Of a stretch of 36,448 nt of DNA, positions 13,191 through 32,431 are shown one piece after another; within the stretch, counting starts at the first letter, position 1; the number at the start of each line of letters is the position of its first letter. The DNA lies in contig JAQUEX010000010.1 in NCBI GenBank assembly GCA_028684935.1, forward strand, positions 1 to 36,448, given 5' to 3'. This DNA comes from Kiritimatiellia bacterium. GTDB lineage: Bacteria; Verrucomicrobiota; Kiritimatiellia; RFP12; UBA1067. The notes beneath the pieces were generated by a model. It was not told where the DNA came from and did not search any database. It saw only the letters and a program-made list of their open reading frames with translations. Made by a program: the position numbers and the translations under genes.

Positions 13191-14216
13191 ATGGAAATGC
13201 CAGTGTCGAGCCTCACCGGGCTCACCCTCAAAGACCTGCTGGACGCGGGTCTGCACTTCGGCCACCAGACCAAGCGGTGGAATCCCAAGATGAAGCGCTA
13301 CATCTTTGACAAGCGCAACGGGATTCACATCATCGACCTGACCCAGACCGTCCCGCTGATTGATGAAGCCGCAAAATTCCTGCGCGATACCGTGCTAAGC
13401 GGCAAAAAAATCCTTTTCGTCGCCACCAAAAAGCAGGCGCAAGAGGTTGTGAAAGAAGCCGCCGCCGCATGCGGGCAACAATACATGACCGAGCGCTGGC
13501 TGGGCGGCACGCTCACCAACAACCAGACCATCCGCCGCAGCGTGCGCCGCATGCGCCAGATTGAAGCGATGGGCCGCAACAACAACGGCGTGCTTTCCAT
13601 CCACAAAAAGGAAGCGTCGAGCCTGCGTCGCGAGTTGGACAAACTGCAGAAAAACCTCAGCGGCGTCGCCGACATGGAGAACAAGCCCGGCGCGCTCTTC
13701 ATCATCGACATCTGCCGTGAGCAGAACGCCGTCAAAGAGGCGCTGCGTCTGGGCATCCCGATCGTGGCGATGGTTGACACCAACGCCGATCCTGATCCGA
13801 TCGACTACGTCATTCCGGGCAACGACGATGCCGTGCGCGGCGTCAAGATGATCGCGGATGCGTTCAGCAAGGTGATCAAAGAGGCGAACGACGAGTACAG
13901 CCGGATTGCTGCCGAGCGCCAGCGCCAGCGGGAAGCCGAGCAGGCCTCCCAGGACGCGCAGGAGCGAGCGGCTCGCAAAGCACGCAAGGACCTCGCCGGC
14001 ACTGAAAGCGCTGACAAGGCCAAAGCCAAGCTGGCCGAGACCCGTAAGCGTGCCGCCAAGGCTGCCAAGGATGCGGTTGACGCGAAAGTCGCTTCGGTCG
14101 AGCCGGCAGCCGAGAGTGCCGCGCCGGCCGCCGCCGAGGTTGCCGCTGAAGGAGCCGTCGAGGCCGCAGCTCCGAGCGTTGCCGACACGGCCGTTGCGGC
14201 GCCCGCCGCCGAATAA
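13191..14216 (+). CDS. rpsB: 30S ribosomal protein S2 with long Ala-rich C-terminal extension
   Basis: LKDLLDAGLHFGHQTKRWNPKMKRYIFDKRNGIHIIDL...WLGGTLTNNQTIRRSVRR...NADPDPIDYVIPGNDDAVR. Confidence 0.97.
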   Translation: MEMPVSSLTGLTLKDLLDAGLHFGHQTKRWNPKMKRYIFDKRNGIHIIDLTQTVPLIDEAAKFLRDTVLSGKKILFVATKKQAQEVVKEAAAACGQQYMTERWLGGTLTNNQTIRRSVRRMRQIEAMGRNNNGVLSIHKKEASSLRRELDKLQKNLSGVADMENKPGALFIIDICREQNAVKEALRLGIPIVAMVDTNADPDPIDYVIPGNDDAVRGVKMIADAFSKVIKEANDEYSRIAAERQRQREAEQASQDAQERAARKARKDLAGTESADKAKAKLAETRKRAAKAAKDAVDAKVASVEPAAESAAPAAAEVAAEGAVEAAAPSVADTAVAAPAAE

Positions 14217-17014: not shown

Positions 17015-18856
17015 TTAATCCGTCGGCTTGTCCGTGTCAGCACGAGACTCCGTCGCCTGCGCGTCTGCATCTTCTACGACCGCTTCAGGCGCGGCCACGG
17101 GCGTGTCACAGGAGGCAACCGGCGCCGGCGCAGGTTCACCCCCATCGCCAGCAGGCGCTGCCGCCTCAGCTTCAGCGGCCTCGACGGCCGTCTCTTCCGG
17201 CGCGGCAGCCGGCTGATCAGGCGTAGCAGACGAAGTCTCTGAACGAGGCGCAGCGGCTTGAGGCTGACGCGCCGCGCCCTGTTGAGCGCCGGCCTGTTTC
17301 TCGCCTGGCAACACGCGGAATGCGGGATAATCAAGCGGGCCGCTCAAGACATCGTTGTAATACTCGACCACGTGGCCGCGTTCAACCAGCCACACGAGTT
17401 GGACGAGCGTTTCCTTGACTTTTTCCTCGTCGCCGCCAGCGATCGCAGCAACCATCTCCGCCTTGGTACAGGCGGGATGTTCGTTGACATAGGTCAACAC
17501 ATCGCGTAACGCCTGCACCGTGTGCGAAGGATCCAGCGCCAACGGCGTCTTGAGCATGACGAAGTCCTGCCCTTTGGGGTCATTCACACGGAACAGATGA
17601 AGCTTGCGGTGGCGGAAAGCCCCGCGCAGCGCGAAAAACAGCGATGCCGGAAAGCGGCGCTCGCGCAGCAGCATATCCTTCAGCGCGAAAAACAGCGGGC
17701 GACTCGACGTCTGCATGCCGACCGCCGCCGTGCAGATCAGGTGTCGCACGTTCGCGACCTGTCCCGGCAAAATTTCGCGCAGAAAAACCAGCTCGGCGAT
17801 ATCCCGCTCCATCGCAGGGGCCTTGGGCGCCGGCTCGGCATCCGCTTCGGCGCTTGCGCCGGGATCAGCGGCATCCTCAGCATCCACCGGCTCCGCCACG
17901 GTGGGCGCGGCACCCTTGCGACGGTAAATCTTTTTCTTGGTGCACTGCTGCCGCCATTTTTCGATGGCCTCGGGATCTCGCACGGTTTCGATGCGCGCGC
18001 GATAGGCCTCCTCGGAGAAGGTCGCGTAACGGGTCCGCAGCATCTCCTGCACCTTGCCGTTAAAACTGTGGTGATTCGGCGGCCCCAGCAACTCACCGCT
18101 CATGCCGCAGCGCGCGACACACACGAACGCGCCGGAGGGCGGCTCGCACGCCACCTCCTCCACATCAAAGAAATCATCCATGTGGCGATTCACCAGATGC
18201 GTACGGATCTCCTCCTCGGACAGCGCGGGCATGCCGCACACCTTGCATTGGAAGAGCGGCACCTGCTGATCCTTTAACGGTTCAATGCGGACCAGACAGG
18301 AGGCCGGATTGTCCAAGAAGAGCCAAGCGATATCGCGCAGGGGAAACGCACGATGCGACGTCTGAATGCGGCGAATGACCGCCCCCAGCGCCTTCTGCTC
18401 GGGCAGCACACGAATTTCAAGCGGCAACGCAGGCACCTCGGGGCGATCCTGCCGCGGCGGCCCACGGAAATCACGCCGAGGCGGATAGCCACCTCCGGAT
18501 TCCGGTCTGAAACCACCCTCTGCGCGCGGCCCGCGCAGATCGGCGACAGCCGCACGCGACTCAGGCCGCGGCATATTGCCGCCGGCAGGTCGCGCCCCGC
18601 GGTCATTCTCGCGGCGCGGTGGACGACGGTCCGGCTTGCGGCGGTCGCGACCGTCAGCCTCTCGCGGCGCACGGCGGTCACGACCGTAATCGCGCCCTCC
18701 CCGCCGGGAATCGCCGTCATCCGCAAACCGTTCGCTCTGAAAGCGCTGGATCGTCTCCTCGGGCGACGTGCGCGCCCAGCTCGGAGCAAAGTTCAAATCC
18801 AGTACAATCCCGCCGTTGTCCTGACCCTCAGGCTTCGCCTCTTCATTCTCACTCAT
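17015..18856 (-). CDS. Uncharacterised protein with Arg/Gly-rich N-terminus, C2H2-like zinc finger and Ala/Pro/Glu-rich tail
   Basis: Uninterrupted 613-aa ORF with a T-tract hairpin downstream. Contains CKVCGMPALSEEEIRTHLVNRH (C-X2-C-X12-H-X4-H), an SRRGGRDYGRDRRAPRE... N-terminal region and a folded central core. Confidence 0.85.
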   Translation of the reverse strand: MSENEEAKPEGQDNGGIVLDLNFAPSWARTSPEETIQRFQSERFADDGDSRRGGRDYGRDRRAPREADGRDRRKPDRRPPRRENDRGARPAGGNMPRPESRAAVADLRGPRAEGGFRPESGGGYPPRRDFRGPPRQDRPEVPALPLEIRVLPEQKALGAVIRRIQTSHRAFPLRDIAWLFLDNPASCLVRIEPLKDQQVPLFQCKVCGMPALSEEEIRTHLVNRHMDDFFDVEEVACEPPSGAFVCVARCGMSGELLGPPNHHSFNGKVQEMLRTRYATFSEEAYRARIETVRDPEAIEKWRQQCTKKKIYRRKGAAPTVAEPVDAEDAADPGASAEADAEPAPKAPAMERDIAELVFLREILPGQVANVRHLICTAAVGMQTSSRPLFFALKDMLLRERRFPASLFFALRGAFRHRKLHLFRVNDPKGQDFVMLKTPLALDPSHTVQALRDVLTYVNEHPACTKAEMVAAIAGGDEEKVKETLVQLVWLVERGHVVEYYNDVLSGPLDYPAFRVLPGEKQAGAQQGAARQPQAAAPRSETSSATPDQPAAAPEETAVEAAEAEAAAPAGDGGEPAPAPVASCDTPVAAPEAVVEDADAQATESRADTDKPTD

Positions 18857-18901
18857 GGTGATTCTATGTTACCGTTTGTTTGACCGACCGGTCAATGTGA
18901 T

Positions 18902-20854
18902 TTATGACACATGGCCCGCCGCGACAGCGGCCAAGAGGCCGCCGTTCAGCACAATTCGTTTCTGGCGGTCGCTCAGCGCCGCCGTGGCTGTGAACGAGGT
19001 CCCGCGCGTCGCGTTCACAAACGTGACCCGACCGTCACCCGCCAGCGCCGACCGGAACCCGTCACACGCCAGCTCGTCACCTTGCGCGACCGCATCGTAA
19101 TCCTCCGGACGATCAAAGATAAACGGGACGATACCGAAGTTGATCAAGTTCGCGCAGTGGATGCGTTCGATGCTCCTCGCCAACACCGCCTTGACGCCCA
19201 GGTACATGGGGCACATGGCCGCATGCTCGCGGCTCGACCCTTGCCCGTAGCTTTCGCCGGCCACGATCACGACGTGACGTCCCGCGTCACGGATCGCCGA
19301 GGCGTTCTTGTAGAACGCAGCATCGACATGCTCAAAGACATACTTCGCGTACTGCGGCACATTCGAGCGGTACTTCAGGCGCGCGCCGGCCGGCATGATG
19401 TGGTCGGTCGTGATCTTGTCGCCAACCTTGACGGCCGCCACGCCGTTGAGTGTCTCGGGCAGCGGCTTCCCGGCAGGGACCTCGCCGATATTCGGTCCGC
19501 GTACGATCGCCGTCTCCGGCACGCCGCGGCCGGCCGTCTCGCGAAAAAGAAACATGCTATCATCCACGTCAAACGTCGCCGGCTCTTCGACACCGGCCGG
19601 GACCGCTTCACAGGCGCGCGGATCGGTGAACACGCCGGTCAGCGCCGCCGCAGCAGCAGTCTCGGGACTCACGAGAAAGATCTGCGCGCTCAGCGTACCG
19701 GAACGCCCCTCAAAATTACGGTTGCTGGTGCGCAGGCTCACGGCGTCCGTGCCGGGCGACATATGGTTGCCGATGCAGAACCCGCAGGCGTTCTCCAGAA
19801 GGCGCACGCCGGCCTGCACTAAATCGGCGAGCAGCCCTTCCTTGGCCAGCATCGCCACCACCTGCCTCGAGCCCGGTGCCACACCGACCTCCACGTCAGG
19901 ATGCACCTTGCGGCCGCGCACCATCAGGGCCACGGTCTTGAGGTCACGGTAAGACGAATTGGTGCAGGAGCCGATCAGCACCTGATTGACGCGGCGGCCG
20001 GCCAGCGAGGCGATCGAGGCGACATTCCCGGGCGAGTGCGGGCATGCCGCCATGGGCTCCACAGCACCCAGGTCGATCTCAACCGTCTGCTCGTAATCCG
20101 CTCCGTCATCGGCCGTGAGTTCGACCCAATCCGCCTCGCGTCCCTGCGCCACCAAAAAAGCATGTGTCACTGCGTCGCTCGGGAAGACCGAGGTGGTGAC
20201 CCCCAACTCCGCGCCCATATTGGTGATCGTCGCGCGCGCCGGCACGCCCAGTGTCGAAACGCCCGGCCCGGCGTACTCCAGCACGCGCCCGACATTGCCT
20301 TTCGTTCCGAATCGCGCCAGCACAGTCAGGATCACGTCCTTCGCCGAGACGCCCGCCTGCAACGCCCCGGTCAGCAGCACCCGCGTAACCTTCGGGCAGG
20401 TCAGATAAAAAGGGCCGCCGCCCATGGCCACGGCCACGTCGATGCCGCCCGCGCCGATCGCGATCATGCCGATACCGCCGCCGGTCGGCGTGTGCGAGTC
20501 GCTGCCCAGCAGGGTGGCGCCCGGTTTGCCGAAGCGTTCCAGATGAAGCTGGTGGCAGATGCCGTTGCCCGGCCTCGAGAATACGATCCCGTACCGTTGC
20601 GCCACGCTTTTCAAATAGGCGTGGTCATCCGCGTTTTCAAACCCGACCTGAATCGTGTTGTGATCCACATAGCTCACCGCCAGATCGGCCTTCACGCGGT
20701 CAAGCCCCATACTCTCAAACTGCAGGTAGGCCATCGTGCCGGTCGCATCCTGCGTCAGGGTTTGGTCGATACGGATCGCGAGCTCCTCGCCAGGAACCAG
20801 ACTACCGGCGACCCGGTGCGCCGAAAGGATCTTCTCAACAATGTTCTTCGCCAT
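18902..20854 (-). CDS. acn: Aconitate hydratase
   Basis: Start MAKNIVEKILSAHRV with GGAGCAACGC upstream. LLGSDSHTPTGGGIGMIAIGAGGIDVAVAMGG, IGSCTNSSYRDLK, ENACGFCIGNHMSPG, SLRTSNRNFEGRSGT, YGQGSSREHAAMCP. Confidence 0.93.
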   Translation of the reverse strand: MAKNIVEKILSAHRVAGSLVPGEELAIRIDQTLTQDATGTMAYLQFESMGLDRVKADLAVSYVDHNTIQVGFENADDHAYLKSVAQRYGIVFSRPGNGICHQLHLERFGKPGATLLGSDSHTPTGGGIGMIAIGAGGIDVAVAMGGGPFYLTCPKVTRVLLTGALQAGVSAKDVILTVLARFGTKGNVGRVLEYAGPGVSTLGVPARATITNMGAELGVTTSVFPSDAVTHAFLVAQGREADWVELTADDGADYEQTVEIDLGAVEPMAACPHSPGNVASIASLAGRRVNQVLIGSCTNSSYRDLKTVALMVRGRKVHPDVEVGVAPGSRQVVAMLAKEGLLADLVQAGVRLLENACGFCIGNHMSPGTDAVSLRTSNRNFEGRSGTLSAQIFLVSPETAAAAALTGVFTDPRACEAVPAGVEEPATFDVDDSMFLFRETAGRGVPETAIVRGPNIGEVPAGKPLPETLNGVAAVKVGDKITTDHIMPAGARLKYRSNVPQYAKYVFEHVDAAFYKNASAIRDAGRHVVIVAGESYGQGSSREHAAMCPMYLGVKAVLARSIERIHCANLINFGIVPFIFDRPEDYDAVAQGDELACDGFRSALAGDGRVTFVNATRGTSFTATAALSDRQKRIVLNGGLLAAVAAGHVS

Positions 20855-20922
20855 GCGTTGCTCCTGATTGAAAGCCCGTATGGTGCATGAAATGGCGGTG
20901 CGCAACAAGCCCAAACTTGGCG

Positions 20923-22869
20923 TCACCGGCCAAACACGATAAAGCAGGCATCCTGAGCCCCGAGAAAGATGGAGGCCGTTACCCGCCCGTCCGCCTCGCG
21001 GCGGACATCCGTCTCGACCCGGCCGATCTCTCCGGTCAACGGATCCCAGCGTTCGGGCACCCCCTTGCCCGTATCGCGGAAGACACAGGTCACGCGCCCC
21101 GGTTCCGTATGCTCGTTGACGAGAAAATAGAACTCATGCGTTGCCGAGCGCCGATGGACAAACCGGACCTGGAATCCCGCTGTATCCGTCCGCCACACCA
21201 TATCCGGCGTGATGCCGGGCAGCGGGTCCGAACAGTGTGCCGGCACCCTCGCCACGTCCCCCCCAGCGAGTTGCGTCAACCGCGAAACAACGGACGCTCC
21301 CCCGTCTTCGGCCTCTTCCGTCAGCAGCCAGACGCGCACGCCGCGTGCTGCGATCATGCGCACGAGACGTTCATTCTCGGCATGTCGCAGCACCGGCTCT
21401 GCGACGGCCAAACCCGTATACTCGCGCTCCGATTCAAACAGGATCCGGCCGTTTTTGACGGACGCGGCTGCAAGCATCACGCCGTTTACGGCATCCGCCG
21501 AATAACCGGCCAGAACGGGCAACGGGCTCTCTGCCCAGACCACGAGGTCGCCAACCGGCACGCCCTGCTGCAGCAGAAGCTGGCACCTGTGCGCATAGAG
21601 GCAGCCGTCGCGCAGCGAACGGAAGGCCGTGTCGTCGCTGGGCAACGCGCCGCCGACATCCAGCAAAAGCCGTGTCGCACCGTCCGCATACAGGCCGTCG
21701 AGCGCATGCTTCCAAGGAAACGGCAGCAGCACGGCGGCCGGCGAGGGCTCGACCTCGTGCGGCGCCAACCACCCCATCACCACGCGCCGTCCCAGGGTAC
21801 GCGCTCCGCCAGCGGCCCGCGCATTGGCTTCGCGCGCGGCAGCGCGCGATGATCCGACCAGTATCGGGCGGCGGAAACGCCACGCGACCTCGACCGGATC
21901 AACGGGCGCCTGATCAACACGAATACCGGCATCCAGCCCCGCTTCGTGTACCAGCTCATCCACCGTCTTGCCGCACCGTTCACGCCAAAGGGTGCACACG
22001 GTCTGCGCCATCTGCTGCCGTACAAAGGCGGCCGTCGCCTCACCGCCCACCGCCACGCCGGTCCATGCCGGAAGGGAACGAGTCAACCCCAGTCCGCTGC
22101 GCTTCAAAAACGTCTCAGGCATGTCAGCAGCCCATGCCATGTCTGTACGAGGAAGCCCAGACAGGTGCACCCAGAGAAGCGTGCTGCCGTACGTCTGTTT
22201 CAGGCGACTTTGACAGGCAAAGAGCCATTGGTTGACATGCCGGAAAAATGCCGTGCCGTCATAAGGATCGATCCGAGGCGGCTCGGCATCGACGACGCCA
22301 AACCGATAGACCCTCCATACGCCGCCTGTCGGCAGCGACTGGGCGGACAGATCCACCAGGTGGTGCGGATGCAATTCAGTCACGCCGACGGGCACGGCCT
22401 GGCACGTTACGCTGCGATAGGAGTCTGGCGGCGTGGCGACCCGCGGTGTCATGCGCGGCACGCCGTCGGAAGCAGGCCGCACGGTTTCTGCGGACCAGAC
22501 CCATTTCTTCGCATGCGGCGCGGATGCCGCCTCGTCCTGCGAGATGAAAAAATCAGTGAGCCCCGTTTCGAGCCCCAACTGGCGCGCGCGGTCCAGCGCG
22601 CGCGCCACCCCCTCCCACACCGCTTCGTCTGCCGTCGGCACGGCAAGAAGAACACCGCCGGCGCCGATATCGCGCGCCCGTTCAAGCTGGCGCCCCACGC
22701 CCTCCCCCAAGAGCCCCTCGCGGTCTGCGGTGAGCGATATGCAGGGACGGGCTGCGTTCGGCGGCGGCGCGCGGAACTGCTCGTCAAGTTCCGTCCCGCA
22801 CGCGCTCACCGCCAAAGCACAGCCCAAACGCGTGAACCATGCACATGAACCCGTCAAGTTGACCGTCAT
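20923..22869 (-). CDS. Putative lipoprotein, GH106 (alpha-L-rhamnosidase)-like, short or divergent
   Basis: Lipobox VSAC near the N-terminus; C-terminal FYFLVNEHTEPGRVTCVFRDTGKGVPERWDPLTGEIG resembles the GH106-type C-terminal signature; GVRVWLLTEEAE and GRILFESEREYTGLAV support a glycosidase-like fold. Confidence 0.5.
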   Translation of the reverse strand: MTVNLTGSCAWFTRLGCALAVSACGTELDEQFRAPPPNAARPCISLTADREGLLGEGVGRQLERARDIGAGGVLLAVPTADEAVWEGVARALDRARQLGLETGLTDFFISQDEAASAPHAKKWVWSAETVRPASDGVPRMTPRVATPPDSYRSVTCQAVPVGVTELHPHHLVDLSAQSLPTGGVWRVYRFGVVDAEPPRIDPYDGTAFFRHVNQWLFACQSRLKQTYGSTLLWVHLSGLPRTDMAWAADMPETFLKRSGLGLTRSLPAWTGVAVGGEATAAFVRQQMAQTVCTLWRERCGKTVDELVHEAGLDAGIRVDQAPVDPVEVAWRFRRPILVGSSRAAAREANARAAGGARTLGRRVVMGWLAPHEVEPSPAAVLLPFPWKHALDGLYADGATRLLLDVGGALPSDDTAFRSLRDGCLYAHRCQLLLQQGVPVGDLVVWAESPLPVLAGYSADAVNGVMLAAASVKNGRILFESEREYTGLAVAEPVLRHAENERLVRMIAARGVRVWLLTEEAEDGGASVVSRLTQLAGGDVARVPAHCSDPLPGITPDMVWRTDTAGFQVRFVHRRSATHEFYFLVNEHTEPGRVTCVFRDTGKGVPERWDPLTGEIGRVETDVRREADGRVTASIFLGAQDACFIVFGR

Positions 22870-23034
22870 GCCGCCGACTTTAGCATACTTGGCCGATATC
22901 CGCCACAGTGACAGCGCACCAAAACCGCCCGATAAAAAAATTAAAAATCACTCATTTTCTTCTTGCGCATGCCGAAGAACCGTGAAACACTAGCAGCGAT
23001 CAATGGTTATATTTTCTTGCAAGGAGTGAAGAGC

Positions 23035-26000
23035 ATGCCCTCCGAGCTATCCAGTGAGTGTACAGAAAGCGGGCCGCAAGGCAAGAAGGCGGGTTTGGGC
23101 TTGGCGTTGTCAGTCTGCATCGCCGGCGTGTGGTCTCTTTCACTCGCCGCGCATGCGGCCTTGAGTCCGCCGCTCGCGGAGGACGGTTCGCGCGGCGGTC
23201 TGGGCACGATCACCTCTTGGTCATTCGCGTCGAACAACGCAGGCCGTGTCACGCTGCCCGGAACCGTTCTGGACCGCTTTGATCAGACCGGCACGCCTTT
23301 CTTCTCAAGCTCCTTCTTCCGCGGCAACCTCTACCATGCCGACGCGGCCTGCACGCTGCTGGGGCACGAGTTTTACTTGGAACGAAACACGCCCGTCGAG
23401 GTGACGTTCAGCGTCTACGAGGGCGCCACCGCCGCAGGGCCCTTCATCCGGGTCGACGAGGTGACCGTGCTGGCCCCGGCCGGAACGGGATATGTCGCAA
23501 GCGGACAGCGCGGCGTGACGCTGCGCGCGGGCTATACCTACGCGGTCGGCGCGGCCGTCGCAGAATCGGCGTATTTCCAGCGCCCCACCGTCACCCTGCC
23601 CTTTGACAACGGCGACCTGAGCTGCGTGAACGGGCTCCTTTTTTCCGGCCTCCCCGGCGCCACCGTCAGCGCGTTCAGCACGGCCACCAATCCTTACCGG
23701 CAGCGCCTGCGCCTGGGCGGTCCGAGCGATGTCGTGCCCGGCGGCACCACCCTGATGCTGTTGGAAAGCGTCGGCATGAGTATGCGCGGCAACCTCTACG
23801 CACCCTCACAAAACACCTGGTTGCTCGGGCACGGCCTCTATGTGCCGCGCGGCAGTGACCGAACGATGCGTCTTTTCGTCTACGAAAGCGCCGAGCGCAC
23901 CGGCACCTACGCGCGTGTCGATATGCAGACCGTCACCGTGCCGGCCGGCACCAACTACATCGCGGTCTCCACCCGTATCCCGATGCAGGCCGGACGCTTC
24001 TACATGATCGGTGCCTGGGGCACCAGTTATTCCTGTTACCGGGCCAGCGGCTATTATGCCACACCCCAGGACTTCTCATGGGGCCGCGCCGTCGAGGGTT
24101 ATTCGAGTGTTTACCTTTTGAACGGACCTCCCGACACCTTCGTCAAGTCATCGACAACCAACACCACCGTCTACTGGGGCTGCGTCACCGTCGGCGACCT
24201 GCCCGCCTTGCGTATGGACACCTCCGTGTACAACCAGATGTCGACCAACAGCGCCACGGTCCTGCTCGACACGCAAGGGTATGACAATCTCTACCTCGCC
24301 TTTGACCACCGGGAAGCCGGCGACGAGGCCCATGACGGGGACGGCGTCTTCGTCAGCTCCAACGGCACCTCGTTCCGCAGGATCTTGCAGATCGACACCA
24401 CGTCGTCGGGCTGGACCCGTCATGAGATCGACCTGATCCCGCTGGCGCGCGCCGCCGGCGTGCCGACAGACGGACAGCTCCATGTGCGTTTCCAACAGAT
24501 GGACAATTACCCGTGGACCGGCGGGGACGGGCGCGAATTCTCCGGCATCCTGTTCCACGCCAAGCCGGATTTTGGCTGGTATGCGCTGGACACGACCCAG
24601 CCGAAATATCTGTTCCGCGGCAAAGTCGTTAAAACATTTTCTCTCTCCGGCACACTGGCGCTCGCGGGCGGAACCAACGCCGTGGCGGATCTGGCAATCA
24701 ATACGCGTTACCGATTAAACGACCCGGTCGGGCCGGTGCAAACCACATACGACGCATTGTCCCTCGATCTTCCGGCGCTGGGCCATCGCCACATGCCCTT
24801 CGGCACCACCGTCACGGTCCCTGCCTCCACCACCCTCACGCAAAGCGTTTATCAGATCCATGTCGACCTGGACTACGGGGCCAACTTCAGCGAGGGCAAC
24901 GAGAGCAATAACACCGACCGCACCGAGTTCCTTGTCAACCACTACGCCGGCACCCTGCGCTTCGGCACGGTGTCCACCTTTGTCACGCTGAGCGACTGGG
25001 ATTTCCAGGTCGGCTACGGGGCTCCCCTTTTCTCGCCCGAGCGGCACGTCATCACCGGCAACGGCACGGTCGCCGGACAGAGCTTCTCCTTCACGAACCT
25101 GAAGGTCCGCAAGGATCCCATAACCGGAATCTACAGCGTCGACCCTGCCGAAACCCAGACCATCACGCTGTATGGCCTGACCAATACCCTCGGCAGCGTG
25201 TCTGGCGTCCGTTTCCGCTATAACAGCCCGATCACTCTCAGCAAAGACGGCGCTCAGGGCATCGTCTCGGCCCTCATGCCGGCCGGCTGCGCCTTCGCCG
25301 CGCGTCCGGACATGCCGTGGGGCATGCCTTTCACCGACGCCATCCCGGTCTGGTTCAACAGCCTGCTGTATCCGACCGGCATCCTGACGACCGCCCCGCC
25401 CTATGGCTTTTTCTTTGAAGAGTCCAAGCCCCTCTACTTTGATGTCACCAGCCTGCAATGGGACACCGCCGCCGGCAGACTGTCTCTCACGGTCGCCGAC
25501 CTGCTTTATGCGCACGCGCCGGCCCTTGATGAACTTGAGGCGCTGAAATCCGCCGGCCTGATCAGCAGCCAAGACGCGCTGCGCCGCAGCAACGACGGTT
25601 ATTATCGTACCGCAGCCCCGCTGAGCGGCACGGTCCAGGTCACGCCGGACAGCGCCGGCGCCGCGCAACTCGACTTTGCGGTCTCTCTGAAAGCCGGCGC
25701 GTTTGTCGCGCACATGCCCTACGATGTCGCCATCGACTGGCGAGACACCGGCCACCTTGCCATCTCCAATGACCTCCCGGTGGTTGACCCGGCCGCGAGC
25801 GTACTGAACGACGGCCAGGATATGCGCGTCACCTATAACAGCGGCTGTCCCGGCGGATGTGTCGGCGGCGACATGATCCTCACTCAGGAGTGCTACAACG
25901 CGTACGCGGCCTTTTTCTTCACGCAGGACGGCGGCCTCTTCGTGCCCTGCGAGTTCCGAGGCGTGGATGCGGAGATCCACTGGGGGTATATCGCGTCGCT

Positions 26001-29000
26001 CGGTCGGCATGCCCAGAATGCTTTCGGTTTCCGTGAAGGGGTGTTCCACATGCCCGGACACTTCCTGAAACGCGCGGATTGTCCGCCCGTGCTCTCCGCC
26101 GATGACACCCCCGGCGCCCTCCTCTTGACCGGCGTGGAGCGAAATGGCGACGAATTGATCCGGCCTCACGGCCAGGGCTATGCGGAGGGCGACGGCGCCT
26201 ACGCGGGGCTGACTGTCGCCTATGAGGGCCCTGACTGCGAAGGCACCATGAGGCTGGGCGGCTCCGGAACGCTCGGGCCCTTCCGGCTGGACGAAGCCTG
26301 CAAACTCTACGTGCGCCATTCGGGCGTCACCGGCATCCAGCTCGCGGATGAGACCCTGGGGAGCAGCTCCGTCATGCTCTACGGCTATCCGTTCCGGCTC
26401 AATTACCTGGCCTTCGCCTACCTCTCCAATATGAACACCGACTCGCGCTCTGACGGCGATCTGTTCGTGCCGGCACCGACGGATTTCAATCTGGCGTTTG
26501 ACCGGCTCAACTTGAACTGCTTTGGCGATGTCGAATCGCTCTCGCTGCCCTCGCCGGCACCTGAACTCACGCTCGCCTACTGGTCCGCCCGCGTCAAGCC
26601 CACAACGGCGCTCTTCACCTCGACCGACCCGTGCGCGGTGGGACAGAAGACGCTGGTCATGGATATTTCCACGGAGGTCGACAACCTGCCCGGACGGCTT
26701 TTCGGCCGCATCGGCGTGCTCGCGAACGGCAACCTCGCCTGCTCGAACGACATGATCGGCTGCGATTCGCGCCTGACCCTGCCCGCCAGCGTCACCCTGC
26801 CCGGTCCGAACGGCGCCAGCTATACCCTGCGCCCAGCCTCCAAAGGCTACTTCAACGATTTCCGGGCCTGCGGCGACCGGGCGCAGACCGGCGACGGACT
26901 TCTGACCTTCGCGGGCGAAATCGATGTGCCCTTCTTTGAGAATCTCCTGGTCCAAGGCTTCACCGGTGCCGATACCGGCGGAGCGACCTCGCCGCTCTAC
27001 CTGGTCGGCGGCTGGCCGACCAAAGGCTGGAAGATCGGCAGCGACACGCCCTTTACTGATCCGGAATTCGACACGGCCAACGCGGCTCATCCCACCGGCA
27101 CCGGCAAGCCTCCGTTCTCGGAATACCTGGCCGGCAGCCATGCCGACTACATCCCCCGCGCCCGGCGTGAATGGATCAGCGGCATCGGTTTCGATATCGG
27201 CGTGCGCTGGGATGCGCCGACCCGCTCGTTCCGTTCGCCGGCACCGAACACCCGTGACCTGTTTGTGGTCCAGACCGAATACAACGTGCCCCAACTCACG
27301 CCGCAGCGCGCCGAGATCACCTTCGGCTTGCAGTACGGCGAGATGCCTGCCCTCAATCTCTCCAGCGTTTTCTTTAATGCCGTCGACGAGGCCACCGGTA
27401 TCTCAGCGTGCTTCACAAGCGTCGTCGGCAACGTGGTCAACTCGGTCATGGACCGCGGCATTGACGCGCTGGAAACGGTCACCGCCACCGATCCTGCCGA
27501 ACTGTTGGCCAACACCCTAGCCAGCGAGATCGATCCCTTTGTCGATTCGCTCTATGTCGCCCTCTCCAACGCCCACGCATCAGGCAGCAGCTCTGTCTCC
27601 AACGTGCTGGCGCGCTACGTCCGGGGCGGCGCGGGCGCACCGGCCCATAACCTGCGCCACATCCTCGACACGCTGGTCGACGGCAGTTCCGTGATAGAGG
27701 ATGGGATCGGCCTCGCCGACGACCTGCAGGCACGCATCGACGAGGCCGAGCAGCTTATCAACGCCGTGGCCTTCACGGTCGATGATCCGGTGATGGGCAC
27801 CGCCGACGGTCTGCTCAACAAGCTGGGCGACGACTACCCGCTCCTCGAAACGCTCGGCCGCATTTTGATGATCTTCGCCATCCCCTCCATGATGGATGCT
27901 GATTCGGCCATTGAGGATACACTCGGCACGGTGATGGAAAGCATCGAGCCCGCGCTCGACACCATCAAAGAGACTCTGGGCGAGGTTCAAACCCAACTGG
28001 CCGACGTGCGCAGCACGCTGGAAGAGGCGGGCGAATTCCGCAACGAGCTGGCCGCCTTCCTGGATCCGGCGCAGCTTCAGGCGGTCGCGGACGCGATCGC
28101 CAGCCAGATGGAGAGTGAACTCGGCGCGCTGGAGGGCGCGTTCTCGCCGTACGCCAACTATACTCAAGACGAGATCAAAGCCCTGCTCCGCGCCGCCATC
28201 GTGGACGCACTGCGCAGCGCGTCGCCTATTGCAGAGCTGCAGCGCGTCGTCCGCGCCCGCATGCTCGATTTCGACCGCCAAATCCGGGAGGGCGTCAGTT
28301 CCGTCATGGCGCAGGTCAACACCGCGATGCGGGAAACCCTGTCGGAAATGGTCGGCAGCTTGGACGACACGATTTCCGGCATGACGGGCGATCTCTCCGA
28401 CGTGATCGGCACCGGGCAGATCGAAGGGTATGCCCACATCTCCGGCGATTCGCTCGACAAGCTGCGCCTTGATCTGCTGGCCCAGATGAAGGTGCCCGAA
28501 GAACTTGAATTCAAAGGTTATCTTGAGATCGTCAACGAGCAGGCCACCGCATCGGCCGGCTGCGCATTCCCCGATGGCGACACGTATAAAGTCACGCTGG
28601 GCGCGCAAGATGTCGCGTGCGACTGGCTCGGCTCCGACGCCCGCATCAACTGCGCCTGCTTCTTCACCATCAACAGCGGCACGCCCAAAGGCCTGGGCGG
28701 CGGCATCGAGCTGGTGGGCGGCAAGATCAACTTCGAGGCGATGGAGGTCGAGCGCTTCGGCGCGGCTGTGGCGTTCGGTCTGCTGGAGAACTACCTGGCC
28801 GCAGCCGCGCGCGTGACCACCCCGGCCGGCGTGGAGATCGAAGGCGGCGTCTTCTTTGGCCGCACCTGCACGCTCGACCCGCTGCTGATTGTGGACCCCG
28901 AGTGCGGCACGGTCTTCGGCGAACCGCCCTTCACCGGCGCGTATGTGTACGGCGAAGGCTGGATGCCGATCTACGATTACGGCTGCCTCTTCAGCATCAG

Positions 29001-29265
29001 CGCCGGTGCCGGCTTGGGGGTCTTCTATTTCATGGAAGGGCCGACCTACGGTGTCCGCGTCATGCTGGGTGCTTCAGGCGAAGCGCTTTGCGTGGTCAGC
29101 GTGCGCGGCGAGATCGAGGTCTACGGTCTCAAGCAGGGCGACGCCTACCGCGCGCGCGGCAAAGGGAAGGTCAAAGGCAAAGTGGGGTGCTGCCCCTTCT
29201 GCGTGAAATTCAACAAGACCGTGACTGTGACCTATGACGATGGAGAATGGGATGTGGATTATTGA
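23035..29265 (+). CDS. Giant secreted protein (about 2076 aa) with duplicated N-terminal domain, CARDB-like domain and helical stalk-like region
   Basis: AAGGAG site at 23021; signal peptide-like KKAGLGLALSVCIAGVWSLSLAAHA. CARDB-like LALAGGTNAVADLAIN...YQIHVDLDYGANFSEGNESNNTDRTEF; helical region around 27450-28450. Confidence 0.9.
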   Translation: MPSELSSECTESGPQGKKAGLGLALSVCIAGVWSLSLAAHAALSPPLAEDGSRGGLGTITSWSFASNNAGRVTLPGTVLDRFDQTGTPFFSSSFFRGNLYHADAACTLLGHEFYLERNTPVEVTFSVYEGATAAGPFIRVDEVTVLAPAGTGYVASGQRGVTLRAGYTYAVGAAVAESAYFQRPTVTLPFDNGDLSCVNGLLFSGLPGATVSAFSTATNPYRQRLRLGGPSDVVPGGTTLMLLESVGMSMRGNLYAPSQNTWLLGHGLYVPRGSDRTMRLFVYESAERTGTYARVDMQTVTVPAGTNYIAVSTRIPMQAGRFYMIGAWGTSYSCYRASGYYATPQDFSWGRAVEGYSSVYLLNGPPDTFVKSSTTNTTVYWGCVTVGDLPALRMDTSVYNQMSTNSATVLLDTQGYDNLYLAFDHREAGDEAHDGDGVFVSSNGTSFRRILQIDTTSSGWTRHEIDLIPLARAAGVPTDGQLHVRFQQMDNYPWTGGDGREFSGILFHAKPDFGWYALDTTQPKYLFRGKVVKTFSLSGTLALAGGTNAVADLAINTRYRLNDPVGPVQTTYDALSLDLPALGHRHMPFGTTVTVPASTTLTQSVYQIHVDLDYGANFSEGNESNNTDRTEFLVNHYAGTLRFGTVSTFVTLSDWDFQVGYGAPLFSPERHVITGNGTVAGQSFSFTNLKVRKDPITGIYSVDPAETQTITLYGLTNTLGSVSGVRFRYNSPITLSKDGAQGIVSALMPAGCAFAARPDMPWGMPFTDAIPVWFNSLLYPTGILTTAPPYGFFFEESKPLYFDVTSLQWDTAAGRLSLTVADLLYAHAPALDELEALKSAGLISSQDALRRSNDGYYRTAAPLSGTVQVTPDSAGAAQLDFAVSLKAGAFVAHMPYDVAIDWRDTGHLAISNDLPVVDPAASVLNDGQDMRVTYNSGCPGGCVGGDMILTQECYNAYAAFFFTQDGGLFVPCEFRGVDAEIHWGYIASLGRHAQNAFGFREGVFHMPGHFLKRADCPPVLSADDTPGALLLTGVERNGDELIRPHGQGYAEGDGAYAGLTVAYEGPDCEGTMRLGGSGTLGPFRLDEACKLYVRHSGVTGIQLADETLGSSSVMLYGYPFRLNYLAFAYLSNMNTDSRSDGDLFVPAPTDFNLAFDRLNLNCFGDVESLSLPSPAPELTLAYWSARVKPTTALFTSTDPCAVGQKTLVMDISTEVDNLPGRLFGRIGVLANGNLACSNDMIGCDSRLTLPASVTLPGPNGASYTLRPASKGYFNDFRACGDRAQTGDGLLTFAGEIDVPFFENLLVQGFTGADTGGATSPLYLVGGWPTKGWKIGSDTPFTDPEFDTANAAHPTGTGKPPFSEYLAGSHADYIPRARREWISGIGFDIGVRWDAPTRSFRSPAPNTRDLFVVQTEYNVPQLTPQRAEITFGLQYGEMPALNLSSVFFNAVDEATGISACFTSVVGNVVNSVMDRGIDALETVTATDPAELLANTLASEIDPFVDSLYVALSNAHASGSSSVSNVLARYVRGGAGAPAHNLRHILDTLVDGSSVIEDGIGLADDLQARIDEAEQLINAVAFTVDDPVMGTADGLLNKLGDDYPLLETLGRILMIFAIPSMMDADSAIEDTLGTVMESIEPALDTIKETLGEVQTQLADVRSTLEEAGEFRNELAAFLDPAQLQAVADAIASQMESELGALEGAFSPYANYTQDEIKALLRAAIVDALRSASPIAELQRVVRARMLDFDRQIREGVSSVMAQVNTAMRETLSEMVGSLDDTISGMTGDLSDVIGTGQIEGYAHISGDSLDKLRLDLLAQMKVPEELEFKGYLEIVNEQATASAGCAFPDGDTYKVTLGAQDVACDWLGSDARINCACFFTINSGTPKGLGGGIELVGGKINFEAMEVERFGAAVAFGLLENYLAAAARVTTPAGVEIEGGVFFGRTCTLDPLLIVDPECGTVFGEPPFTGAYVYGEGWMPIYDYGCLFSISAGAGLGVFYFMEGPTYGVRVMLGASGEALCVVSVRGEIEVYGLKQGDAYRARGKGKVKGKVGCCPFCVKFNKTVTVTYDDGEWDVDY

Positions 29266-32200
29266 ACAGAGAACGCCGTGCCTGAGCCTGCTGGCCGGGG
29301 TAGCGGCTGTTGCCGTCGCAGGGCTGCTGCATGCGCAGACCGACGACCCGATGCTGTTCTGCATGGGCACGTCGATCCGCGCCGGCGGCAAAGACTGGGC
29401 GTATGTCTTGTGGGAGGTCAATGATGGCGCGCCGCTGCCTGACCCCGCCCTCTCCGTCCACGCGCGTCCCGGCGGTTTCACCGATCCAGGCACCTTCACT
29501 CGCGTGACCGTCGCACAGCGCCAGACCGACCCCGCCACCGTGGCCTGGCTGATCGCGCGCGCCGAGTCGATCGGACAGAGCGCCGCCGACCTCGCCCATC
29601 TGCTGGACACCGTTTTCGCCGACCTCGCGCTCAGTCCTGGCTTGAGCCTCGAGGCGCGGCTGGCCGCCGTGATCCGCGCCGGCGCGGAGAATCCCGAAGC
29701 CGAGGAGAACCTGCGGTTTCTGGCCCGACGCCATGCCGCGATTGCGATGGCATTGGGACGCGCCGTCCTGGTCCCGATCACTGCGACAGGGCAGACCACC
29801 CTTGAACTGCGCGCGTTCGACCCCGCCGGCGGACAGGAAGGTCCCCTGCGCGGTCGCGTCAGCGTAACCGCCAACGCCCCGCGTATCCTTCCCGCACCGC
29901 TGAATGTGAGCGGCACCACAGAAGCGTCGCCGCGCGGACACCTTGTCATCGGCGTGCGCTGGGATGTCTCCGACGCCTACCGGCGCGTCTCCCTGCTCGG
30001 GTTCGGCTTTAACGTCTATCGTTTGGACCGCGATTTCGCGGTTGCGCACAACTACCACATCACCCCGCCGGGCCCCGCAGAGCTGGCGACGTTGCTGGCC
30101 ACGCACCCCCAGGCCGTCAAACGCGCCAACCGCCTGCCAGTCCTGATCGACGAAGACGATGTGCCGCCGGACCGTCCCTACTTCAATGACGACAATGACC
30201 GTTTCGCGCCAGACGGTGCACCGTTTGCCGCCGGCCAGCAGTTCTATTACTTTGTGACGGCCTGCGACGTGCTCGGACGCGACGGCGAGGTCTCACAAGG
30301 CGTGCTGCTGACCGCGTGTGACCGGCAGGCCCCGCTCGTCCCTGTCGGCGTGCGCGCACGGCGGCTGCGGACCTTTGACGGGACCGCGCGCGACTATGGC
30401 GTCGAGATCTCCTGGCAGCCGAACCCCGACACCTCCAACGACACCACCACCGCCTACTGGATCTACCGCTACGCCAGCCAAGACGACCCCACCTTCCGGT
30501 CACGTGATCCCCTGCTGAACCGCATCGGCGGACCGGTCGCGCAAAACACCAACCTGACCCGCCAGGTGTACATCGACACCACGCCGGGCGAGGCGGATTT
30601 CGGCCGGCGGTATTACTACACCGTGCGCGCCATCGACAACAGCGCGTGCGGCGGCAACTGGTCCGGGCACAGTGCGCCGGTTGCGTGCAACCTGCGCGAC
30701 GAGGATGGGCCCGGCCTGCCCTCGGCCACACTCTTCGTGGACCGGCTCGATGTCACGGTCACGGCGGAGGAGGCTCCGGTCGACATCACCGAGTCGCCCA
30801 TCGACCGGGGCGATTTCCGGCTGGTTTGCAAGGTGCCGCAAGCGTGGTTGCGCGACCCGGTGCAGTCGGTCTCCTTCTATCAGCGTGAAGCACGCGATGA
30901 AAACGCGCCGGTCCTGTTTATCGGGCGCTACACGTTGGGTGACGGGATGGCGGCTGTCACCAGCCGATACCTGCGTGTCGACAGCAAGATCAACTGGTTC
31001 TTTTACTGCCAAGTCAAGTTGCGCGACGGGACACTGTCAAACTTAGCGCGAAGCGGACAGTTTCTTGCGCATTCCAAACTCATGATCTGCCGCCACGTGC
31101 TGTTCAATGCACTGGGAACGGTCACGCGCGTGCCCGCTGATCCGACCGATCCCGGCGTACCGCCTTCTGGCAGCCTCGTGCCGACCGTGACGATCCATTT
31201 GGACGCAGACTCCGTGGAGTGGCGTCTCTTCACGCAGATTGATAACGGCCCGCTGACGCTTGCGCGCCAAGGCCTCGGCACTCCCAACACCGACATCTCC
31301 GACATCCGGGCCGATGTTGAACGGTATCTGCATTGTGCCGACGTGAAGTATTTTGTGCAAACGTTTGACAACAACGGCAACCCGAGCCCGCTGAAGTTGA
31401 TTGGACACGCCTTCGTTCCCGGCGCGGCTCCGGCTGCGCTGGAGTATGTGGCGGTCGAGCCGTCCGGTACCAGCAACGCCCCCACCTTCACCGTCACATG
31501 GGTCGGATCGCCGCACGGTGTCGATCATTTCGAACTGCATCTCGGCATGCCGATGAGCGAACCGCCCGAGTCTCTGGCGGGCGCGGGGCTCAGCACCAAT
31601 CTGATCAAGGGCACGGGCACCGCGCTCGCCGTGCCGAACACAGACGGCACGCAGGAAACCTACCTGATGGCGATGTATGAGACGCCGCGTGTCGGCGCGG
31701 CCTTCGGCGATCCAGACAGCGACCTGTTCACCGTCACGTTTCCCGCACAGATCAACTCCCGGATCTTGGTGCAAATCCGGCCTGTCGGCCGTTGTTCGGA
31801 GGGCGAGATCTCGTACCGTCAGATCGCCTCTTGGACGTTGCCGGCCCCGCTCAGCCAGGTCACGGTGCCCTGGCCGGCCCGCTCGCTGCCGCCGGTTGCC
31901 GCGCCGATCAACACGGCCATCAAACCGCTCTTCCTCCCGTATCAAGACTACAGCGATGCCGTGTCCCGCGAAACCGCAGCGATTGCGATCGGCCGTGTCG
32001 ACAACAACTCCGACATCATGCACCGCCAGGCGGACGGCTACCTGCTGCCCACAGGCAATCCGCTCGAAGCGTTCTTGTACGCGCCTGACGACGCCTCCGA
32101 CACCCTGCTGCCCTTTGTTCTTTACCGGCGTCAGGTCGCCAACTCCCTTTTCCCGAGCGTATCCGGACAGTATGTCCAGGTCACGCCGATGATCGAGCAT

Positions 32201-32431
32201 TTCGCCTCGGTCATCGACGCGCCGACCGGAAAACGCCGTATCCTTGATCCCTATCTGGTGATCGGCCGACTCGACCCTCAGGTCGCGGAAGACTTTCACA
32301 CCATCTGTGTACGCGACCGCTTGGGCATCGTCGGCGGAGCCGCCTATGAGTATCTGTTGATGCGTTTTGACGAACGCCGCGAACCGCGCGACGTTCTTAA
32401 ACTGGGAAGCGTCACGATTCCCGCAAGGTAA
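29252..32431 (+). CDS. Large secreted protein (about 1059 aa) with FN3-like domains
   Basis: Signal peptide MWIIEQRTPCLSLLAGVAAVAVAGLLHAQ; start overlaps the upstream gene by 14 nt. FN3-like VEISWQPNPDTSNDTTTAYWIYRY...GRRYYYTVRAIDNSACGGNWSGHSAPV. Confidence 0.88.
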   Translation: MWIIEQRTPCLSLLAGVAAVAVAGLLHAQTDDPMLFCMGTSIRAGGKDWAYVLWEVNDGAPLPDPALSVHARPGGFTDPGTFTRVTVAQRQTDPATVAWLIARAESIGQSAADLAHLLDTVFADLALSPGLSLEARLAAVIRAGAENPEAEENLRFLARRHAAIAMALGRAVLVPITATGQTTLELRAFDPAGGQEGPLRGRVSVTANAPRILPAPLNVSGTTEASPRGHLVIGVRWDVSDAYRRVSLLGFGFNVYRLDRDFAVAHNYHITPPGPAELATLLATHPQAVKRANRLPVLIDEDDVPPDRPYFNDDNDRFAPDGAPFAAGQQFYYFVTACDVLGRDGEVSQGVLLTACDRQAPLVPVGVRARRLRTFDGTARDYGVEISWQPNPDTSNDTTTAYWIYRYASQDDPTFRSRDPLLNRIGGPVAQNTNLTRQVYIDTTPGEADFGRRYYYTVRAIDNSACGGNWSGHSAPVACNLRDEDGPGLPSATLFVDRLDVTVTAEEAPVDITESPIDRGDFRLVCKVPQAWLRDPVQSVSFYQREARDENAPVLFIGRYTLGDGMAAVTSRYLRVDSKINWFFYCQVKLRDGTLSNLARSGQFLAHSKLMICRHVLFNALGTVTRVPADPTDPGVPPSGSLVPTVTIHLDADSVEWRLFTQIDNGPLTLARQGLGTPNTDISDIRADVERYLHCADVKYFVQTFDNNGNPSPLKLIGHAFVPGAAPAALEYVAVEPSGTSNAPTFTVTWVGSPHGVDHFELHLGMPMSEPPESLAGAGLSTNLIKGTGTALAVPNTDGTQETYLMAMYETPRVGAAFGDPDSDLFTVTFPAQINSRILVQIRPVGRCSEGEISYRQIASWTLPAPLSQVTVPWPARSLPPVAAPINTAIKPLFLPYQDYSDAVSRETAAIAIGRVDNNSDIMHRQADGYLLPTGNPLEAFLYAPDDASDTLLPFVLYRRQVANSLFPSVSGQYVQVTPMIEHFASVIDAPTGKRRILDPYLVIGRLDPQVAEDFHTICVRDRLGIVGGAAYEYLLMRFDERREPRDVLKLGSVTIPAR

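Follow-up and report, generated by a model that had tools for sequence, protein, structure and literature searches.

What does a bacterial protein do that combines a zinc finger of eukaryotic spacing with an arginine-rich, low-complexity tract, and how much does it depend on its finger? The question is raised by a gene of a Kiritimatiellia bacterium (phylum Verrucomicrobiota; GenBank assembly GCA_028684935.1), situated in positions 1 to 36,448 of contig JAQUEX010000010.1, a stretch of 36,448 nucleotides (nt) referred to below as the window. The gene consists of a single open reading frame (ORF) on the minus strand, running from 18856 to 17015 and encoding 613 amino acids (aa), while the plus-strand frame across 17015-18856 is interrupted by internal stops. 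It occurs once in its 3.8 Mb genome, and near relatives of its product stem from metagenome-assembled genomes of Kiritimatiellae. The protein belongs to a real and conserved family, the C2H2 finger of which is unusual and evolutionarily labile, and its function can be approached by inference only.

The C2H2 finger and its family

The sequence CKVCGMPALSEEEIRTHLVNRH (residues 204-225, window 18247-18182) fits C-X2-C-X12-H-X4-H, exactly as the original prediction had it for 18182-18247, and the spacing is indeed eukaryote-like, with 12 residues between the second Cys and the first His as distinct from the 9 residues of Ros/MucR fingers (PMC9779718). Ligands were counted in 51 homologues at the order level, in 51 further homologues at the class level, and in 26 from another class of the phylum. 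All four are identical in 51/51 homologues of the order and kept in 40 of the 51 further ones, such that the Cys and His residues, on whose conservation the prediction had been made to depend, are intact in 91/102 homologues of the class; the remaining 11 exhibit GSQH (4), CNYG (3), FDHH (2), CTHC (1) or SSQA (1). Because the four ligands are so widely kept, and are kept or lost coordinately (failures of the motif usually hit at least two of them jointly), the motif is not a product of chance.

In the other class, the ligands are gone while the remainder of the protein is retained: CCHH is found in 0/26 homologues, the commonest sets are SDHH (9 rows) and CDHW (4), and Asp occupies the second Cys position in 21/26 rows. 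On an unrooted tree built without the finger columns, five changes between an intact and a not-intact finger are needed. As far as can be judged from the homologues, the family can do without the finger, which the other class lacks and some lineages of the Kiritimatiellae have lost.

A template-free model of residues 196-322, based on ten sequences, exhibits beta-beta-alpha topology with a mean predicted local distance difference test score (pLDDT) of 76, and of 81-85 in the finger blocks. Locally, Foldseek superposed it on individual ZBTB10 and BCL11A fingers with probabilities of 0.89-0.95 and deviations of 0.6-1.0 A across 24-27 residues; a match to the domain as a whole was not obtained at E <= 0.001. 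The finger thus resembles classical eukaryotic C2H2 fingers (zf-C2H2, PF00096) in spacing and predicted fold, whereas it differs from them in standing alone within a larger domain, in its acidic helix face, in ligands that are not family-wide, and in often missing the conserved aromatic residue (A211 in the window protein). It scores below the Pfam gathering cut-off of PF00096; position +10 after the second Cys is I, L, V, A or M, and position +4 is Ala in 51/91 and aromatic in around 20. Helix positions -1, 2, 3 and 6 are mostly S/D/T, E/D/A, E/A/D and A/Q/S, respectively, and not basic. Since the DNA-reading positions are acidic, base reading by the finger is unlikely, and it probably does not serve as a DNA reader.

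Ros/MucR likewise represents a bacterial C2H2 finger whose lineages lose zinc or take Asp as second ligand: the Ros relatives Ml1-Ml3 use Asp, Ml4 and Ml5 lose zinc, and DNA binding persists (PMC9779718). The likeness is limited to this tolerance of ligand change, whereas the 12-residue spacer (as in classical fingers), the acidic flanks and the unrelated domains set the present family apart, and a match to a Ros/MucR family profile was found in neither the Pfam nor the NCBIfam scans.

A class-wide profile search detected the family in 224/240 Kiritimatiellae genomes (129/133 of those of good quality), and a phylum-wide draw in 68/113 good genomes, with entire families lacking it. Its range comprises nearly all Kiritimatiellae plus one further class of the same phylum, in single copy; a candidate from another family of the phylum (G080), which matched weakly, was checked and is not a member. 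For phyla beyond Verrucomicrobiota, 84,980 species were scanned with six peptides, a search that detects close relatives only, and the phage, plasmid and viral collections contained no relative. Neither the protein itself (Pfam, NCBIfam and PADLOC) nor 79 homologues (Pfam and NCBIfam) gave a match above cut-off; matches to Actin_micro, which falls on the finger, and to DUF629 were sub-threshold and rejected. A PDB sequence-profile search yielded nothing significant, and the literature searched no paper on this protein family, which is unnamed and without a Pfam or NCBIfam model.

The basic linker, the family signature and the C-terminal part

Features shared family-wide are F23-x3-W27, the Arg-rich linker, P152, P240-x-G242-x-F244, C250 (nearly), G258-P259-x-N261-x-H263, W301 and G494, and two C-terminal modules likewise characterise the family; their positions in the window are given in Table 1 as far as they form part of a listed feature. 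Charge is arranged in modules across the family, with the Arg-rich linker (around +9), the acidic linker and the basic C-terminal module 1.

Table 1. Coordinates of the zinc-finger gene, the parts of its product and adjoining signals in the window
Feature	Window position	Strand	Basis
Promoter TTGACC-18-TAACAT without Shine-Dalgarno, its end 9 nt from the ATG	18866..18895	-	
Entire gene, encoding 613 aa; one copy in the genome	17015..18856	-	
N-terminal short motif LDLNFAPSWAR, residues 19-29; F23 and W27 family-conserved	18770..18802	-	
Low-complexity linker rich in Arg, Gly, Pro and Asp, residues 35-142, net +10	18431..18754	-	
Conserved segment before finger, residues 143-197; P152 near-invariant	18266..18430	-	
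C2H2 finger C204-C207-H220-H225, C-X2-C-X12-H-X4-H	18182..18247	-	Ligand conservation; beta-beta-alpha model; Foldseek
Family signature P-x-G-x-F...C250...GPPN-x-H263-x-[YF], residues 240-265	18062..18139	-	
W301, a Trp shared by all rows checked	17954..17956	-	
Acidic variable linker, residues 321-348, net -7	17813..17896	-	
Basic C-terminal module 1, residues 349-444, net +6	17525..17812	-	
C-terminal module 2, residues 445-520, three helices, winged-helix-like by eye	17297..17524	-	Low-confidence model, pLDDT under 65
Acidic tail rich in Ala, Pro and Glu, residues 526-613, net -14; varies or is missing among homologues	17018..17281	-	
Terminator-like hairpin, 15 pairs and T tail, directly past the stop codon	16946..16980	-	

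Concerning the N-terminal tract, its Arg/Gly/Asp-rich and probably disordered character holds as predicted. Residues 35-142 consist of 26% R, 14% G, 14% P and 11% D, and nearly all full-length homologues possess, between F-x3-W and the conserved domain, a tract of around 50-130 residues with around 12-36% Arg together with Gly, Pro, Asp and Glu. Though the linker sequence is not conserved, its net charge is, averaging +8.8, +8.6 and +9.1 across the three homologue groups. The label RGG-like is imprecise and says too much: RG dipeptides number 4 in the window protein, as compared to 4.0 expected by shuffling, with one RGG, and most homologues behave likewise, so that the tract is better described as a basic linker of low complexity, conserved in the family, than as an RGG repeat. 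With RNA-binding proteins of the RG/RGG type it shares a low-complexity, Arg/Gly-rich and presumably disordered region; in contrast to them, RG and RGG do not exceed composition, Pro, Asp and Glu are interspersed, and RNA binding is here a matter of inference.

The predicted second Cys/His cluster is present as well (residues 236-265), yet it does not form a second finger. C237, C246 and H262 vary, while C250 and H263 are near-invariant even in finger-less proteins; as only these two are conserved, and independently of the finger, the cluster constitutes a family signature instead. In family f7 (L055, L060, L062, L063), GSQH ligand loss is accompanied by a two-residue deletion removing the otherwise conserved C250. 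A coupling of finger loss to C250 change, drawn from two finger-loss lineages, was rejected as a rule, given that C250 is retained in 26/26 rows of the other class, all of them finger-less.

The Ala/Pro/Glu-rich C-terminus is found as claimed. A first structure model of 393 residues, built from 10 near relatives, reached a pLDDT of only 43.7, too low for a fold search.

Genomic setting and expression signals

Plus-strand neighbours of the zinc-finger gene are rpsB, tsf, purN and a gene resembling 3-keto-disaccharide hydrolases. A GH106-like gene shares its minus strand, as does an aconitase gene (18902-20926), which lies directly upstream of it. Among 40 loci compared, this upstream aconitase is the sole recurring neighbour (6 loci, all within the order), and conserved genomic partners beyond the order were not found, which lets the family resemble one with a stand-alone function. 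In the f3 genomes with aconitase adjacency, a Shine-Dalgarno sequence takes the place of the leaderless promoter. The ribosomal protein S2 gene (13191-14216, plus strand) encodes 341 aa, around 110 aa beyond the length of the S2 domain, and two adjacent, very long ORFs on the plus strand (22963-29262, 2100 aa; 29234-32428, 1065 aa) gave no Pfam match at E <= 1e-4.

A TTGAC...TANNNT promoter without Shine-Dalgarno, with the -10 box ending 4-9 nt before the ATG, precedes 20/48 order-level copies, compared to a shuffled mean of 0.07, and a Shine-Dalgarno-like sequence is found in just 12/121 homologues. The simplest reading is probably a leaderless, separately transcribed mRNA. The arrangement seen at window 18857-18895 (minus strand) recurs at loci L002-L008, L010-L012, L015, L017-L022, L025 and L028. 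The palindrome TTGACCGGTCGGTCAA (18880-18895) overlies the -35 box; since close relatives have similar inverted repeats rich in GC, it may be an operator.

Possible functions

An association with RNA or DNA, as also put forward in the original prediction, is suggested by charge and composition. Tentatively, and somewhat short of an even chance, the protein is best explained as a Verrucomicrobiota adaptor with a housekeeping role that binds nucleic acid, more likely RNA than DNA, and whose zinc finger is structural and dispensable. RNA would be held by the disordered, Arg-rich tract together with the basic C-terminal module, the F-x3-W motif would dock on a partner protein, and the finger would act as a small structural or protein-contact module stabilising the P-x-G-F/GPPN-x-H domain; zinc would not be essential to activity, because ligand-less lineages keep the rest of the protein. 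This explanation is favoured by the near-universal, single-copy occurrence, by the constancy of linker charge in an unconserved sequence, and by the coordinate retention or loss of ligands in a region predicted to fold as a beta-beta-alpha finger. The lack of conserved partners beyond the order and the gene's own promoter in the order-level copies are consistent with an adaptor of stand-alone function.

Several points weigh against the adaptor explanation: RG/RGG motifs are no more frequent than composition predicts, no known RNA-binding domain was recognised in the Pfam, NCBIfam and PDB profile searches, and the C-terminal modules could be modelled at pLDDT under 65 only. Moreover, proteins that do not bind nucleic acid also carry Arg-rich acidic-basic tracts. 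Hfq (PF17209) and ProQ (PF04352) had no match in any of 115 sampled genomes of the phylum, while the same searches match the E. coli controls. Since both are also missing in many other bacteria, their absence is compatible with some other RNA chaperone in the phylum, without counting as evidence for this protein. That the family represents a Verrucomicrobiota-specific core RNA-binding protein, possibly a general RNA chaperone or ribonucleoprotein scaffold, whose eukaryote-spaced finger has changed between zinc-bound and zinc-free states in the course of one orthologous family's evolution, appears doubtful.

A DNA-binding transcription regulator or nucleoid protein, in which finger and winged-helix-like C-terminal modules would bind DNA and the Arg tract add non-specific affinity, is an unlikely but serious alternative. 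DNA binding is common among C2H2 fingers and helix-turn-helix modules, module 1 is basic, and a weak BlaI-like profile match exists at the C-terminus (E=0.76, not significant), whereas the helix positions -1, 2, 3 and 6 lack basic residues, the finger is a lone one without a tandem array, and its ligands are lost in other lineages. Somewhat less probable is a protein-protein scaffold with purely structural zinc, in which the conserved domain and F-x3-W would hold partners and the Arg tract would drive condensation or bind acidic partners, including the protein's own acidic tail. The conserved alternation of basic and acidic segments, the acidic finger face and the conserved short N-terminal aromatic motif would suit such a scaffold; however, the conserved positive linker charge is more simply explained by polyanion binding, and beyond the order no neighbouring partner gene exists. 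An enzyme with C250, N261, H263 and W301 as active site or second metal site and the remainder for targeting is improbable although these residues and P-x-G-x-F are the family's most conserved, since C250 is deleted in the four f7 members and His or Ser in others, which makes an essential catalytic Cys unlikely, and neither the PDB profile search nor Foldseek gave a match to an enzyme family or fold.

An essential-gene study of Verrucomicrobium spinosum gives 100 essential proteins without known function (PMC12283558). A core gene of a whole class that recurs in a second class, yet is unnamed in the libraries searched, suggests an important uncharacterised function. With its natural series of one orthologous finger (CCHH, SDHH, CDHW, GSQH, CNYG and others), the family makes the gain and loss of a zinc finger without loss of the protein directly testable.
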